From NCBI GenBank assembly GCA_020160875.1, contig JAIUPE010000020.1, positions 1 to 39,419 of the forward strand: a stretch of 39,419 bases of DNA, read 5' to 3'. The notes beneath the pieces are model-generated. The model saw only the letters and a program-made list of their open reading frames with translations. It made no database searches and was not told the DNA's origin. Position 1 is the stretch's first letter, and each line of letters opens with the position of its first letter. The translations under genes and the position numbers were made by a program. This DNA is from Pseudomonadota bacterium. Lineage in GTDB: Bacteria; Pseudomonadota; Alphaproteobacteria; Rhodospirillales; Rhodospirillaceae. Below, one piece after another: positions 2,151 through 38,588 of the stretch.

Positions 2151-3953
2151 ATGACCGATCTCGCGCATATCCGTAACTTCTCGATCATCGCCCATATCGA
2201 CCATGGGAAGTCGACACTCGCCGACCGCTTGATCCAATACTGCGGCGGGTTGACCGAGCGCGAGATGACCGAACAGGTCCTCGACAACATGGACATCGAG
2301 AAAGAGCGCGGCATCACCATCAAGGCGCAGACCGTGCGCCTGATGTACAAGGCCAAGAACGGCGAAACCTATCAGCTCAACCTCGTCGATACGCCGGGCC
2401 ATGTGGACTTCGCCTATGAAGTCAGCCGTTCGCTGGCGGCATGCGAAGGCTCGATCCTGGTGGTGGACGCAAGCCAGGGCGTCGAAGCCCAGACGCTCGC
2501 CAACGTCTATCAAGCGATCAACGCCAACCACGAGATCGTGCCGGTTCTCAACAAGATCGACCTGCCCGCCGCCGACCCCGAGCGTATCCGTCAGCAGATC
2601 GAGGACGTGATCGGCCTCGACGCCTCCAACGCCGTCCTGGCCTCGGCCAAGACCGGAATCGGCATCCAGGAGGTGCTGGAGGCCATCGCCATGCGCCTGC
2701 CCCCGCCGACAGGCGAAACGACCAAGCCGCTGAAGGCGCTGCTCGTCGACTCCTGGTACGACCCGTACCTCGGCGTCGTGATTCTTGTTCGCGTGAAAGA
2801 CGGCATCATCAAACGCGGCACCAAGATTCAGTTCATGTCCACGGGCGCGTCCTATCAGGTCGAACGCGTTGGCGTCTTCACGCCGAAGCGCGAAGAGATC
2901 CCGTCGCTGAACCCCGGTGAACTCGGGTTCCTCACCGCCAGCATTAAGGCCGTCGCGGACGCCAATGTCGGCGATACGGTCATCGACGAGAGCAACCCCG
3001 CCGCAGAGCCCCTGCCCGGCTTCAAGGCCAGCGTTCCGGTGGTGTGGTGCGGTCTGTTCCCGACCGATGCGGCGCAGTTCGAAGTGCTGCGCGAGAGCCT
3101 TGGCAAGTTACGCCTCAACGACGCGAGCTTCCATTTCGCGATGGAAAGCAGCGCGGCGCTTGGGTTCGGATTCCGCTGCGGCTTCCTGGGCCTCCTGCAC
3201 ATGGAGATCATCCAGGAACGCTTGGAGCGCGAGTTCAACCTCGACCTCATCACAACGGCGCCGAGCGTCGTTTATAAGATTCACACCACCGACGGCGAAT
3301 CGCATGAGATGCACAACCCCGCCGACATGCCGGACGTGACACGCATCCGCATGATCGAGGAGCCGTGGGTGAAGGCGACGATCATGGTGCCCGATGAACA
3401 CTTGGGGCCGGTTCTGAAGCTGTGCACCGACCGGCGCGGCGAGCAAATCGATCTCACGTACGTCGGCAACCGCGCGATGGTGGTCTATCACCTGCCACTC
3501 AATGAAATTGTGTTCGATTTCTACGACCGCCTGAAATCGATTTCGCGCGGTTACGCCAGCTTTGATTACGAAGTCTCCGAGTACCGCGAGTCCGACCTCG
3601 TGAAGGTCAGCATTCTCGTGAATAATGAATTGGTCGATGCGCTGTCGTTCATGGCCCACCGCAGCCAGGCCGAAGGCCGCGGCCGTCAGATCTGCGAACG
3701 CCTGAAGGACCTGATCCCGCGTCACCTGTTCAAGATCCCCGTGCAGGCGGCGATCGGCGGCAAGGTGATCGCGCGCGAAACCATCAACGCGCTGCGCAAA
3801 GACGTGACGGCGAAGTGCTACGGCGGCGATGCCTCGCGTAAGCGCAAGCTTCTCGACAAGCAGAAGGAAGGCAAGAAGCGCATGCGCCAGTTCGGCAGCG
3901 TGGATATTCCGCAATCTGCTTTCATCGCGGCTCTTCGTATGAATGATGAGTGA
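2151..3953 (+). CDS. lepA: Elongation factor 4 (LepA), ribosome-associated GTPase
   Basis: Translational GTPase that acts on stalled or misassembled ribosomes; membrane-associated or cytosolic in bacteria. 600 residues, the usual family length. G-domain motifs are intact: AHIDHGKST (residues 14-22), DTPGHVDF with the catalytic-type His at residue 84, and NKIDLP (G4, near residue 134). The C-terminal LepA-specific domain is present ([20 protein letters not shown]). Start ATG 2151. The odd part is the 3' end: the last 14 codons recur twice downstream at exact 80-bp intervals (see the repeat at 3911-4113). The stop used here, TGA at 3951, belongs to the first copy. The third copy ends in TAA and may be the ancestral end of the gene. 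Confidence 0.98.
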
Positions 3954-4113
3954 GTTGCATCTTTAGCTTGGCGACCTTCGTCGCCGGGCCGCAATCTGCT
4001 TTCATCGCGGCTCTGCGCATGAATGATGAGTGAGCTGCATCTTTAGCTTGGCGACCTTCGTCGCCGGGCTGCAACCTGCTTTCATCGCCGCGCTCAGGAT
4101 GAACGACGAATAA
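3911..4113 (+). repeat. Three tandem copies of the lepA 3' end, period 80 bp
   Basis: Copies start at 3911, 3991 and 4071. Each encodes [11 protein letters not shown] followed by a stop. Copies 1 and 2 share a 40-bp tail containing a small hairpin (GGCGAC-cttc-GTCGCC at 3970-3985 and 4050-4065); copy 3 ends in TAA and runs into a terminator. Because 80 is not a multiple of three, the three copies lie in different frames, so only copy 1 is translated as part of lepA. Between copies 1 and 3 almost all differences are synonymous (for example AAT GAT GAG versus AAC GAC GAA). That is expected if the copies diverged while each was a real gene end, and not from drift after a local duplication. Confidence 0.95.
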
Positions 4114-4147
4114 AAAAGGCGGCCTCTAATAGCCGCCTATCTTCTTT
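4112..4147 (-). terminator. Rho-independent terminator for the small membrane protein gene, possibly bidirectional
   Basis: Stem AGGCGGC (4117-4123) pairs with GCCGCCT (4132-4138) around an 8-nt loop. On the minus strand the stem is followed by a run of T, so it mainly serves the minus-strand gene ending at 4164. The plus-strand side has a weaker T/C-rich tail and could also end lepA transcripts. Confidence 0.8.
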
Positions 4148-4163
4148 CGTATTGAGGAAGGTC

Positions 4164-4508
4164 TTAGCCGCGCTGGAAAACGCGGCGGCGCGCGCGGCGC
4201 TTGCGGCAGAAGTGCGTGAGCGCGAAGCCCACCACACCGAGCACGACCCACGCGGGCATTTGCATGATGCCTGCACCAGCCGTTGCGATCATTTCAGCAG
4301 AACCGTCGGCTGCATCGAAGGACGGGCTTTGGCCGACCAGAAGTGTCCACAGGTCGACGGTGGCCAGGCTGTCATACGCGCCCATGCCCAATGCCATCAC
4401 AGCCTCCGCAGAGGCCATCAAGATGGCTAAAACCATGAAAATCCAGCCGCTTACGCGCCCGAACAACACAGGAACCCCACACCCACGCTCAGAACTTACC
4501 CCGAGCAT
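4164..4508 (-). CDS. Small two-span membrane protein, unknown function
   Basis: I do not recognise a family. The product has a first hydrophobic segment (FMVLAILMASAEAVMALG), a roughly 50-residue, acid-leaning linker, and a second segment (MPAWVVLGVVGFALTHF) followed directly by a basic C-terminus (CRKRRARRRVFQRG). The basic tail suggests it stays in the cytoplasm. A strong terminator lies immediately downstream, which supports a real transcribed gene. The start is uncertain: ATG at 4508 is given, but GTG at 4469 has a better upstream purine-rich stretch and would shorten the protein by 13 residues. The longer frame to 4571 has no support. It stands alone between lepA and tRNA-Ser. Confidence 0.7.
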   Translation of the reverse strand: MLGVSSERGCGVPVLFGRVSGWIFMVLAILMASAEAVMALGMGAYDSLATVDLWTLLVGQSPSFDAADGSAEMIATAGAGIMQMPAWVVLGVVGFALTHFCRKRRARRRVFQRG

Positions 4509-4571
4509 GAGGTATACCCGATAACACGCTTGAATTACAGGGCTTTTTGGCTTGGTTTTGAGGGCGAACAA

Positions 4572-4905
4572 TCAACCCATAGTGGCAATGGGGGCGTTGT
4601 CCCCCAGGCTGTGGATAACGGGGACAACTTCAGGCGCTTCCATCCCGTCTAGATCCCGGGGCCAAAACCGGGGCGAAGCCCGATTCCGTGCAAAAAGACC
4701 GCCTCGCAATAGGCGAGTCGGTGCGACTCGGCTTTCTATTGCGATGCCCCTGCATCGCCAAGGCTACGCAGGGGTCGGCTATCCAATCCTGCGAAGCGGC
4801 GGAGCAGGGTGGTAATGGCCCTGCTTCGCTGAGGCTCCGCAGGGCATTCTGCTACGCGTCTTCATATGGGCAATTCTGCGAAGCGCCGTGAGGCGCGTAG
4901 CAGAA
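4572..4905. repeat. Intergenic region with a cluster of hairpin-forming palindromes
   Basis: No gene is supported here. The first ~130 bp show nothing notable. From 4704 several inverted repeats follow in close succession: TCGCAATAG (4704-4712) with CTATTGCGA (4736-4744) enclosing CGAGTCG-GTG-CGACTCG; CCCCTGC (4747-4753) with GCAGGGG (4768-4774); CCTGC (4789-4793) with GCAGG (4804-4808); GCCCTGC (4818-4824) with GCAGGGC (4839-4845); and ATTCTGCTACGCG (4846-4858) with its complement (4894-4906). The stems share a CCTGC..TCGC..GGCT..GCAGG theme, like REP elements. The last arm touches the CCA end of tRNA-Ser, so part of it may act as the tRNA 3' trailer or terminator. Confidence 0.75.
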
Positions 4906-5597: not shown

Positions 5598-5700
5598 CTA
5601 GAGCGTGTTGAAGTAATGTCGAATCGCCAACGCGCCCGAGATTCTTATTTGGTCGCGCGTTCTACGGCGAACCGGCTTCCACTTCGCCGGAACGCGCTCT
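5598..5700 (+). mobile_element. MITE-like repeat, copy 1
   Basis: About 103 bp, with imperfect terminal inverted repeats GAGCG(T/C)GTT at both ends. The same sequence occurs at 32048-32152 as the reverse complement with essentially one mismatch. The left flank is TA. The non-coding content, short length, terminal repeats and TA next to the ends fit a miniature element mobilised by an IS630/Tc1-type transposase. It lies between the GFA and groEL genes, where both transcripts end, so it is probably neutral. The rest of the gap to 5903 holds only a weak hairpin (about 5813-5842). Confidence 0.8.
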
Positions 5701-32726: not shown

Positions 32727-32803
32727 GTCCCCGTAGCTCAGCTGGATAGAGCACCAGATTCCTAATCTGGGGGTCGTGCGTTCAAATCGCGCCGGGGACG
32801 CCA
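32727..32803 (+). tRNA. tRNA-Arg, anticodon CCT
   Basis: GTCCCCG (32727-32733) pairs with CGGGGAC (32793-32799). The D-arm GCTCAGCTGGATAGAGC, the anticodon arm CCAGA-TTCCTAA-TCTGG with anticodon CCT, and the T-loop GTTCAAATC are all present. CCA is encoded at 32801-32803. It reads AGG codons. The 3' half is the left attachment site of the element. Confidence 0.95.
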
Positions 32804-34381
32804 ACCTGCCATAGAAACTGGAACCGTATTTGGGCGCTTTCCGCGCATCGATGCGGTCGCGTGGGCCAGGGCTTCCTTGGACCCGACGATATTGATATGG
32901 CGGGAGCCCACCTCCACTTCCTGAATGAATAGACGGAAGTAAGCTTTGCGGAGTTGCAAGTCGCCCTCCCTAAGCAAGCGCCCGAAGGCCAACGCAATAG
33001 AGCTAAGGTCAGCAGACGACACCGGGAGAATACCCTTCGAGGCTTCGCGGGTCGCCTCGATCTCGTTTTTCGTTTCTTCCAGTTCGGCGTGCAGGGTCGA
33101 TAGCCTTCCCCTGAAGACCTCAACATCCCCGACTAGGCCATTCTCGATCGCTTCATACAGTCGGTTGATCTTGAGCGTGATCGCCCGTTCCTGGCCGTGG
33201 AGTTGCTTGAGCTTCCGCCTTGTATCCCCATTACCTGACCTCAATGATTGGCGCACTTCTTGAATAAGTGCCCGCATGCGTTCCGGCGTAAGGATGCGGT
33301 CTAGGAGCGCATCCGTAACCAAGGCGTCCAACGTCGGCATTGAGAGTTTGTTACCTTTGCACGCACTGGCACCAACGCGAGCCCATGTGCTGCATGCGTA
33401 GTAGCGGTAGCGGCCACTCTTCCCAGCGCGCAATGTCATCGCCCCGTTGCAGTACGAACAGCGCGCTATCTGGCTCAGCAGTATGCTGTTACTCGTTACC
33501 CGCGTCGGCGTCTTACGCGGATTGCGCTCAGCCAAGAGCTTCTTCACCGAACTAAAGGTTTTGTGGTCAACAATCGCGGGGCATTTCATTTCGACCCACT
33601 CAGTCATGGGCTTGCGCTTATTGGTGCGGCTATCCTTTCTGTTGAAGTAATGCTTGCCGATGTAGGCGGTGTTCCTAAGCGCCTCGTGAACGAACTTGAT
33701 GTGAAAGGGCTTGCCGTTACGCTGGGTTCTCCCGCGCCCGTTCAGGTAACTGACAATATTCTTAATACCCATTGGCCCAGTTTTGCCGTCGCCTGCGAGA
33801 TACAACGTGAAGAACTGTCGAACAATCTTCGCCTCCGGCTCGTAGACTTCTAGGGTTTTCTTGATCTTGTCGCCACGCCGTTCCGCATCGACAACCCTAT
33901 AACCGAAGGGTGGTGCGGAGCCGTTCCAATACCCCTGCTTGGCATTTTCTTTCATGGCCCGCAGCGTGTGCTTCGCGCCCTCTCTGCTTGCATGCTCATC
34001 GAAGAGGGCGATCATACGGCGGGCAAGGTGTCCCCCGGCGTCATCGCCCATCTCTTGAGTGATTGAAGCAAGTTTTACATTCGCTTTGGCAAGGCTGCGG
34101 ATGTAAAGCTCCGCATCTATTGCTTCACGGGCAAAGCGCGAATAACTGTGAACAAGGATGATATCGTATGGATGCCGCGCATCTTCGGCATCACTTATCA
34201 TTCGCTGAAACATTGGCCGGTCATCAGTGGTCGCGCTAGCGCCGGGCTCAATATATTCCCGCACCACCTTATAATTTTTTCGTCGGCAATAGTCGCGAAG
34301 CTGGCGCTGCTGATCGGGTATCGACAGGTCTTGTTCCGCTTGCTTCCTTGTCGAAACGCGGATGTAGAGTGCGGCGCGCAT
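32762..34381 (-). CDS. Large serine recombinase (integrase)
   Basis: Site-specific recombinase of the large serine family, 539 residues. Resolvase domain with the nucleophile Ser10 (YIRVSTRKQ) and the DEHASREGAKHTLRAM helix; then a Recombinase domain (about residues 160-290, GYWNGSAPPFGYRV); a zinc ribbon with Cys 308, 311, 330 and 341; and a coiled coil (about 390-450) that controls directionality in this family. The last 13 codons (W527-D539, WRPRRDLNARPPD) and the stop lie inside tRNA-Arg, antisense, and W527 is encoded by the complement of the tRNA CCA. The C-terminus therefore depends on the integrated state. Start ATG 34381 with a weak ribosome-binding site. Confidence 0.93.
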   Translation of the reverse strand: MRAALYIRVSTRKQAEQDLSIPDQQRQLRDYCRRKNYKVVREYIEPGASATTDDRPMFQRMISDAEDARHPYDIILVHSYSRFAREAIDAELYIRSLAKANVKLASITQEMGDDAGGHLARRMIALFDEHASREGAKHTLRAMKENAKQGYWNGSAPPFGYRVVDAERRGDKIKKTLEVYEPEAKIVRQFFTLYLAGDGKTGPMGIKNIVSYLNGRGRTQRNGKPFHIKFVHEALRNTAYIGKHYFNRKDSRTNKRKPMTEWVEMKCPAIVDHKTFSSVKKLLAERNPRKTPTRVTSNSILLSQIARCSYCNGAMTLRAGKSGRYRYYACSTWARVGASACKGNKLSMPTLDALVTDALLDRILTPERMRALIQEVRQSLRSGNGDTRRKLKQLHGQERAITLKINRLYEAIENGLVGDVEVFRGRLSTLHAELEETKNEIEATREASKGILPVSSADLSSIALAFGRLLREGDLQLRKAYFRLFIQEVEVGSRHINIVGSKEALAHATASMRGKRPNTVPVSMAGWRPRRDLNARPPD

Positions 34382-37810: not shown

Positions 37811-38503
37811 CTATGCGGCTTCCAGCGCGAGTAGCGTGCTAAGTCTCGACACGGATTTTGCGTGCCACTTGCCACCGCGCGGAGTTGAGATGCCGCGCGC
37901 GTTGAGTGCTTCGGCAATTCGCAGCAATGACGTGACACCGGCGCGGCGAAGCTCGTCCAATACCGGTGCAAGCTCTCCGGCTTTCCGCTTAGCCTCAGTG
38001 GATTGGCTTTGACGGCCCAACGCTTGCGCGTCGGAAAGATTTCGTGGATTGCCGAGATGTTCGCCCCGCGCCCGTTTCGCCGCGAGCGCGGCACGAGTTC
38101 GCTGCGAGATCAGTTCGCGCTCTTGCTGCGCAACGGCGGCGTGAATGTGCAAGAGAAAATTGCCCACGTCCGGCCCAAGCTCCGCGACGATGAACGGCAC
38201 CTTCCGAGCCATCAGGCCGCTGATAAACGCCACATCGCGGCTTAACCTGTCCAACTTGGCAACGACCACCGCACAGTCCCGGCGTTTGGCCTCCCGAAGG
38301 GCTTCACGAAGCTGGGGACGGGCCTCAATCGCGTTCTCCCCCGCGCCGGTTTCGATCTCGGTGTAGGTGTTGGCTAGGACGAACCCGAATTGCTCGCAGA
38401 AGGCCCTTATACGGTCTTTTTGGGCCTCAATTCCGAGGCCCGATTGACCCTGGCGGCGGGTGGAAACCCGGACGTAACCCACTATCGGCTTCATTTTTGA
38501 CAT
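37811..38503 (-). CDS. Small serine recombinase/resolvase
   Basis: About 230 residues, resolvase/invertase family. Catalytic Ser14 in [16 protein letters not shown]; later motifs [15 protein letters not shown] and [21 protein letters not shown] fit the family. The C-terminus [27 protein letters not shown] is the usual DNA-binding part. ATG 38503 is chosen; 38494 is nearly as good and the frame extends to 38530. It may resolve dimers or invert DNA in the element. The upstream gene starts 58 bp past its frame. Confidence 0.92.
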
Positions 38504-38588
38504 CCGTAATCGTTCGTTTACGGCTGCCAATCCTGGTCACCACGGTTCTTCCAGGCAATCCAAATCGACAGCCCGCCGCAGATCGGCG

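Follow-up and report, generated by a model that had tools for sequence, protein, structure and literature searches.

Some integrative elements provide the 3' end of the gene that they enter, as do e14 and phage 21 at icd. Displaced 3' ends have been described in T6SS and Rhs loci, according to the parts of two papers available to us (PMC5361080; PMC3240628), and the available part of the first provides a precedent for a new gene end that is placed in front of an old one, which is displaced downstream, by homology-facilitated illegitimate recombination (PMC5361080). The route by which REP-like hairpins spread is called poorly understood in the accessible part of another study (PMC8266576). The accessible part of a study of small variable segments describes no gene-end duplications (PMC2884548), and a word search of the open literature, outside which most subscription papers lie, returned no description of gene-end duplications beside palindromes.

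The locus considered here carries three tandem 3' ends of lepA. In the reading to which we tentatively lean, with doubt slightly outweighing confidence, it is a case of a recurrent change in the genus that proceeds via capture of another allele's gene end. The window (the whole stretch of DNA analysed, 39,419 nt) belongs to genome G000, whose nearest relative is G012 (97% LepA identity). The features of the locus are as follows:

2151..3953, + strand: lepA (translation factor EF4), 600 aa, whose present end is tail copy 1 (ORF translation; 97% identical to G012)
3909..3953, + strand: lepA tail copy 1, stop TGA, the functional end (sequence comparison)
3954..3988, + strand: spacer of unit 1, with a hairpin at 3966-3989 whose foot lies against tail copy 2 (pattern, folding)
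3989..4033, + strand: lepA tail copy 2, peptide as in copy 1, TGA, second unit of the insert (96% over 80 nt)
4034..4068, + strand: spacer of unit 2, with a hairpin at 4045-4070 (pattern, folding)
4069..4113, + strand: lepA tail copy 3, stop TAA, displaced native end (stop and downstream sequence match G012)
4117..4138, + strand: native terminator-like hairpin 3' of copy 3 (folding; arms common to G012)

Every copy encodes the same C-terminal peptide followed by a stop codon. The 80-nt unit is present twice from position 3909, the alignment of all three copies starts at 3911 with a spacing of 80 + 80 nt, and TRF reports a period of 80 with 2.2 copies (score 325), which confirms the three equivalent termini, 80 nt apart, reported by the first-pass annotation. 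Copies 1 and 2 are 96% identical across the unit, with two differences in the tail (both synonymous) and one in the spacer. Copy 3 has the core CTGCTTTCATCGC in common with them; beyond this core most synonymous sites differ, and 5' of it the residues are LQP in copy 3 and PQS in the other two. Over the stretch TCT..GAG, 9 nt distinguish copy 1 from copy 3, corresponding to seven synonymous codons and one non-synonymous codon (S to P), in agreement with the roughly nine bases and single replacement counted earlier. So few non-synonymous codons occurred with a frequency of 4e-5 in a simulation of random substitutions, and the claim that the copies diverged under coding constraint is thereby upheld. 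In the distal part of the tail, all 7 of the codons differing between copies 1 and 3 are synonymous.

The two spacers, only 35 nt long and devoid of any integrase or cargo, fold as hairpins (-17.6 and -18.4 kcal/mol; z -3.4 and -3.0), and the foot of each adjoins the next tail. The spacer pattern matched twice in the window and not at all in 100 shuffles, and an Rfam search of window positions 3700-4600 matched no family. At the end of the window, two ORFs that appear serine-recombinase-like from their translation (32762-34381 and 37811-38530) may mark an integrated element.

The lepA gene of G012 has one tail, ending ATGAACGACGAATAA, followed by a terminator whose arms are AAAAAAGGCG and CGCCTATTCTTTTT, and by the same neighbouring sequence as in G000. 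Since copy 3 and its downstream region match this arrangement, the native end is copy 3, displaced by a single insert of two units, copies 1 and 2, that precedes it. The G012 terminator itself holds a twin hairpin (GCCGGCGAAGGCCGGC, ATGCGCGCCTTCGCGCGCAT; L003:3326-3372). LepA was present in 61 of 61 genomes, and 30 lepA loci, that of G000 included, were compared. The 29 loci other than that of G000 (L003-L031) include one that is truncated before the end of lepA; of the 28 readable ends, 27 are single-tailed. The exception is G007 of the same genus (L013), where a triple lepA tail is built from a 61-nt unit with a different spacer and a hairpin GCGCGCGTTTCCCGCGCGC lying directly against the tail. 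Single tails in close relatives were one half of what had been named in advance as pointing to local duplication; this half is largely seen, but G007 departs from it. Slippage, in the sense of a local tandem duplication of the lepA end, accounts for copy 1 versus copy 2, but the absence of a spacer behind copy 3 excludes it as the whole story, and most of the differences that set copy 3 apart from the other two are synonymous. As a full explanation we regard it as very improbable.

Wider surveys gave a similar distribution. A strict lepA tail pattern, which is blind to truncated copies so that G007 counts once, had matches in 109 of the 317 genomes searched across the order; G000 has three, G169 two and every other matching genome one. 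The two tails of G169 belong to two separate lepA genes on different contigs (L173, L174), and these different genes may reflect strain mixture or true paralogy. A script for second tails, applied to 80 loci (the best of 586 from named relatives), flagged L057, L038 and L041. It requires most of the tail, and the downstream sequence covered was 0.16-3 kb, so that short or distant copies could be missed; the truncated tails of G007 were flagged only through its weaker protein criterion. L038 and L041, together with the near miss L061, were dropped after reading of the sequences. In L057 (Sphingomonas vulcanisoli), the lepA tail is repeated 682 nt downstream. By eye, this second occurrence spans about 140 nt and has partly decayed, and a ParD/ParE-like, toxin-antitoxin-like ORF pair lies between the tails (L057:3500-4400). 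Foreign DNA with cargo may thus land at the lepA end in other genomes.

The lepA end of G000 is strongly diverged from that of G012: third positions differ in 11 of the last 15 codons, against 9 of 45 just before. However, 1 of 35 control genes is as diverged at its end, and at six other scoreable duplicated loci (a comparison that leaves out lepA and the 285-aa gene discussed below) 30 of 90 positions differ in the last 15 codons versus 164 of 525 in controls. Raised tail divergence was therefore dropped as proof of foreign origin, and at lepA it is weak evidence when taken alone. No donor allele, that is a single lepA tail with the G000 spacer and hairpin, was found in the 317 genomes of the order, where at most two candidates were scored per genome. 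A search of the order with the spacer DNA gave matches at E up to 0.1 in 128 of 317 genomes; eight of the nine opened matches outside lepA lie in coding sequence, which led us to reject the spacer as an independent dispersed mobile repeat, and the ninth is an intergenic twin hairpin in G012.

To place lepA in its genomic context, 1,620,419 of the 3,759,503 bases of G000 (1.62 Mb, 43%), consisting of the window and further stretches, were sampled. At least 13 places with a duplicated gene end or start were identified, comprising ten 3' ends with a hairpin, one without, and two mirror cases at starts:

Window, 3' end: lepA, three tails, hairpin
L164, 3' end: MarR-like gene, hairpin
L171, 3' end: 285-aa ORF, three tails, hairpin
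L181, 3' end: 78-aa ORF, hairpin
L187, 3' end: methyltransferase, hairpin
L205, 3' end: PHB depolymerase, three tails, hairpin
L205, 3' end: RcnB-like gene, hairpin
L200, 3' end: accA, four tails, hairpin
L293, 3' end: purD, hairpin
L296, 3' end: Usp gene, hairpin
L169, 3' end: cupin gene, four tails 24 nt apart, no hairpin
L154, mirror case: CoA-transferase (named from its reading), start repeated; hairpin by eye
L166:10331-10590, mirror case: tRNA-Val(TAC), upstream region and 5' half duplicated 183 nt upstream; hairpin by eye

Duplicated ends follow the order gene, variant tail, stop, spacer, hairpin and then old gene end, and the repeat unit at the eleven 3' ends measures 24-125 nt. Pfam backs 8 of the 10 proteins tried at these loci; no family was matched by the 285-aa ORF or the 78-aa ORF, both of which have homologues in relatives. 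In the first 439 kb, the last 30 nt were repeated downstream (at least 28 matches) in 3 of 1291 ORFs versus 0 of 1291 control 30-mers, two of which reached 25 and 26 matches. In one listing of near direct repeats, 10 of the 12 lay inside single coding frames according to a script; outside coding frames, a gene end with its stop was the commonest kind among those opened. No such duplication was seen in 204 kb of G012, where one or two would be expected at the density of G000; the Usp duplication of G012 mentioned below was located through orthology.

This recurrence bears directly on the proposal of the first-pass annotation that elements carrying a foreign lepA tail had repeatedly integrated site-specifically at the lepA 3' end and then lost their cargo, leaving the spacer hairpin as a scar. 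The sharp change from shared core to recoded tail agrees with it, as do the triple tail of G007 and the tail repeat with a toxin-antitoxin-like insert in L057, and the idea of tail replacement stands insofar as copies 1 and 2 precede the old native end. The notion of a lepA-targeting element that lost its cargo does not: twelve unrelated gene ends of G000 show the same arrangement with other hairpins, spacers and cores, so that the spacer hairpin is not specific to lepA, and the thirteen ends have cores that vary in place and length rather than a single target with a fixed core. The inserts contain no integrase or cargo, and the exact lepA tail pattern matched no viral contig; the tail peptide matches 13 phage and 54 plasmid records, those with a gene name among the matches listed being lepA. 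The integration model is thus largely refuted by the recurrence of the layout across the genome and retains a very small probability.

At the duplicated loci, the second gene end starts within a few bases of the hairpin foot. A perfect stem is present at the join in 8 of the 10 hairpin-bearing 3' ends versus 90 of 1192 control positions located 30-75 nt behind other genes (7.6%; P 4e-8), and the two remaining joins carry imperfect palindromes of a shared family. Hairpins at four loci belong to this one family, a dispersed palindrome with 32 matches in the 1.62 Mb (E up to 0.5, many of them weak), for seven of which the position relative to genes was inspected. The MarR-like locus and tRNA-Val have another hairpin element in common (39 nt, 95%), with a join that appears alike by eye. 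A homologous junction on the gene side (the shared core) is therefore combined with a non-homologous one at the hairpin foot. Two further palindromic arrangements were observed in the sample: the dispersed palindrome TGGTCGCGCGTTCTACGG..GCCGGAACGCGC at window positions 5650-5697, with four copies in 1.62 Mb, and a whole hairpin-bearing intergenic unit that is tandemly duplicated with a period of 79-80 (L207:10097-10260).

The recurrence of hairpin families fits the main rival to allele capture, namely that a REP-like hairpin element inserted near a gene end with a long target duplication in a single lineage, after which the copies diverged by vertical descent, their cores evolved in concert and losses differed between descendants. 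However, the duplicated length varies, and a constant-length flanking repeat of the kind left by transposons as a target-site duplication was not found: repeats measure approximately 12-61 nt, with a spacer of about 8-75 nt on one side (by eye), and the sequence between stop and hairpin appears by eye unlike the native downstream region. Flanking repeats of at least 12 nt were found at only 5 of the 32 family matches, many of which are weak, and these five are units at the duplicated loci. We consider such local insertion rather unlikely on balance, though well ahead of the remaining alternatives.

A variant in which a REP-associated tyrosine (Y1, HUH) transposase mobilises the hairpins, and small circles of gene end plus hairpin re-enter by homology, is improbable. 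It would explain the hairpin at the join and the tandem units, and G000 contains three Y1_Tnp genes (L301, L302, L303; ORFs of 213-243 aa). However, the stems of at least 7 nt around these genes are other hairpins, one gene has almost no upstream sequence, and the joins, inspected by eye, lack the constant C/T dinucleotide that the accessible part of PMC8266576 reports for TnpA-REP cleavage. The RAYT-like Y1_Tnp gene of L302 is preceded by a GGGGTCAGA..TCTGACCCC palindrome. A reverse-transcriptase route was rejected: PF00078 (RVT_1) had no match in G000 (91% complete), while 3 of 14 control genomes were positive.

Comparison of present and old tails reveals that the pattern seen at lepA is shared. 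At five loci both tails encode the same distal peptide with other codons, and all 19 differing sense codons are synonymous: seven at lepA, four each at the 285-aa and Usp genes, and two each at the 78-aa and cupin genes. In simulations, an all-synonymous outcome arose by chance in 0 of 100,000 trials for lepA and with frequencies of 2e-5 for the 285-aa gene, 0.003 for Usp, and 0.033 for both the 78-aa and cupin genes. The stop codon also differs between tails at four of these five loci. Elsewhere, the old end has decayed (accA, PHB depolymerase and methyltransferase (frameshift)) or is still identical over the repeated coding part (MarR-like, RcnB-like and purD), the latter as local hairpin insertion would have it. 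At lepA and the 285-aa gene, however, the relic is still coding-like and it is the present tail that has changed at most synonymous sites, the opposite of what local insertion predicts for an unconstrained relic. This constellation favours the presence of two alleles.

The distribution of duplications among species is uneven. As at lepA, the sequence downstream of the last copy matches G012 at the MarR-like and methyltransferase loci, which marks that copy as native. The Usp duplication is common to G000 and G012; 13 other genomes of the genus in which the locus could be read lack it. Judged by reading, the RcnB-like duplication is found in G000 and G004 but not in G012 (the G004 relic has an indel and was not flagged by the script), and the methyltransferase duplication occurs in G000, G004 and G005. 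These distributions demonstrate that duplications persist across species and can be missing in a nearer one. They also make an assembly artefact, in which a mixed-strain draft of 219 contigs joined alleles, hardly credible: the same duplications occur in separate genomes (Usp in G000 and G012, RcnB-like in G000 and G004), some relics have decayed, and units carry private differences.

Duplications common to species, and the RcnB-like pattern with its absence from G012, are likewise compatible with local hairpin insertion, and so is the history of Usp. Its core copies differ at 0 of 29 positions within G000 and 1 of 29 within G012, versus 3-4 of 29 between species (between the two, the Usp segments are 78-94% identical, similar to the 87% of the gene body). 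Near-identity within and divergence between species indicate that the cores were homogenised, and the sharp switch from core to variant sequence is therefore, at this locus, at least partly due to gene conversion. Given this homogenisation at Usp and the duplications common to several species, a local event with later vertical divergence is possible at most loci. The ancestry of two loci is mixed, which may point to an insert from another genome: the methyltransferase of G000 is 91% identical to that of G012, yet its KTE-stop tail and GCCGCC spacer are as in G004 (the G005 spacer is similar), and at the 285-aa gene the sequence downstream of copies 1 and 2 resembles G012 (TGATTATTTT) while that downstream of copy 3 resembles G005.

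We therefore return to allele capture. The segment most likely came from the allele of another strain or species of the genus with a different downstream region. It comprises a copy of the gene end with its stop, a spacer peculiar to the locus and, at all but one of the 13 places, a REP-like hairpin, and it lies before the old end. The gene remains intact, since the incoming copy supplies the missing end, and the old end persists as a relic beyond the hairpin. Joining would rely on homology on the gene side and be illegitimate at the hairpin foot, with hairpins perhaps protecting or defining the ends of the incoming strand. Later, the repeats would mutate while gene conversion homogenises the cores, slippage could add units (two at lepA, three at accA), and recombination between repeats might drop the insert to leave an intact gene with its old tail. 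As the most likely account, capture explains why the gene is intact and the tails differ synonymously, why ancestry is mixed at the methyltransferase and the 285-aa gene, and why the arrangement resembles displaced ends in T6SS and Rhs loci. Against it stand the missing donor allele, the cupin locus without a hairpin and the G005 methyltransferase spacer without a strong one, and neither capture nor any of its rivals gives a reason why the hairpin foot should meet the gene end itself.

If capture is right, bacterial gene ends record allelic exchange, with a fossil of the old end beside the new one, and the spread of REP-like hairpins becomes directly testable within one genus. It would also show how intergenic DNA can be exchanged beside accA and purD, which are usually essential, without breaking either gene. 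A bolder version, which we consider fairly improbable, sees hairpin-ended gene-end cassettes as a distinct and harmless route by which palindromes spread, carried along with a copy of the neighbouring gene end. In that case, arrival at the same locus in another strain would yield a complete gene whose 3' UTR is new and whose old end is kept as a hidden backup, which recombination between the repeats could bring back, and genes would exist in long and short end forms traded between species.

Each of the known systems shares part of this picture. Orphaned 3' ends at Rhs and T6SS effector/immunity loci likewise combine one homologous with one illegitimate join and form serial copies; unlike in those arrays, the ends duplicated here belong to housekeeping genes, the peptide is often unchanged, the units measure only 24-125 nt, and a hairpin mostly stands at the illegitimate join. 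REP, BIME and REPIN sequences with their RAYT (TnpA-REP) transposases are also short dispersed hairpins, many of them by gene ends, and G000 has Y1_Tnp genes; however, the gene ends beside the hairpins are duplicated here, and these hairpins were not seen near the Y1_Tnp genes. Integrative elements at gene 3' ends similarly preserve the gene through a synonymous incoming tail and leave the old tail at the far end, whereas the present inserts lack cargo and integrase, affect many target genes and have varying cores. Displaced gene ends as such are therefore known, and what may be new here is that hairpins mostly mark the join and that the encoded peptides are often unchanged.
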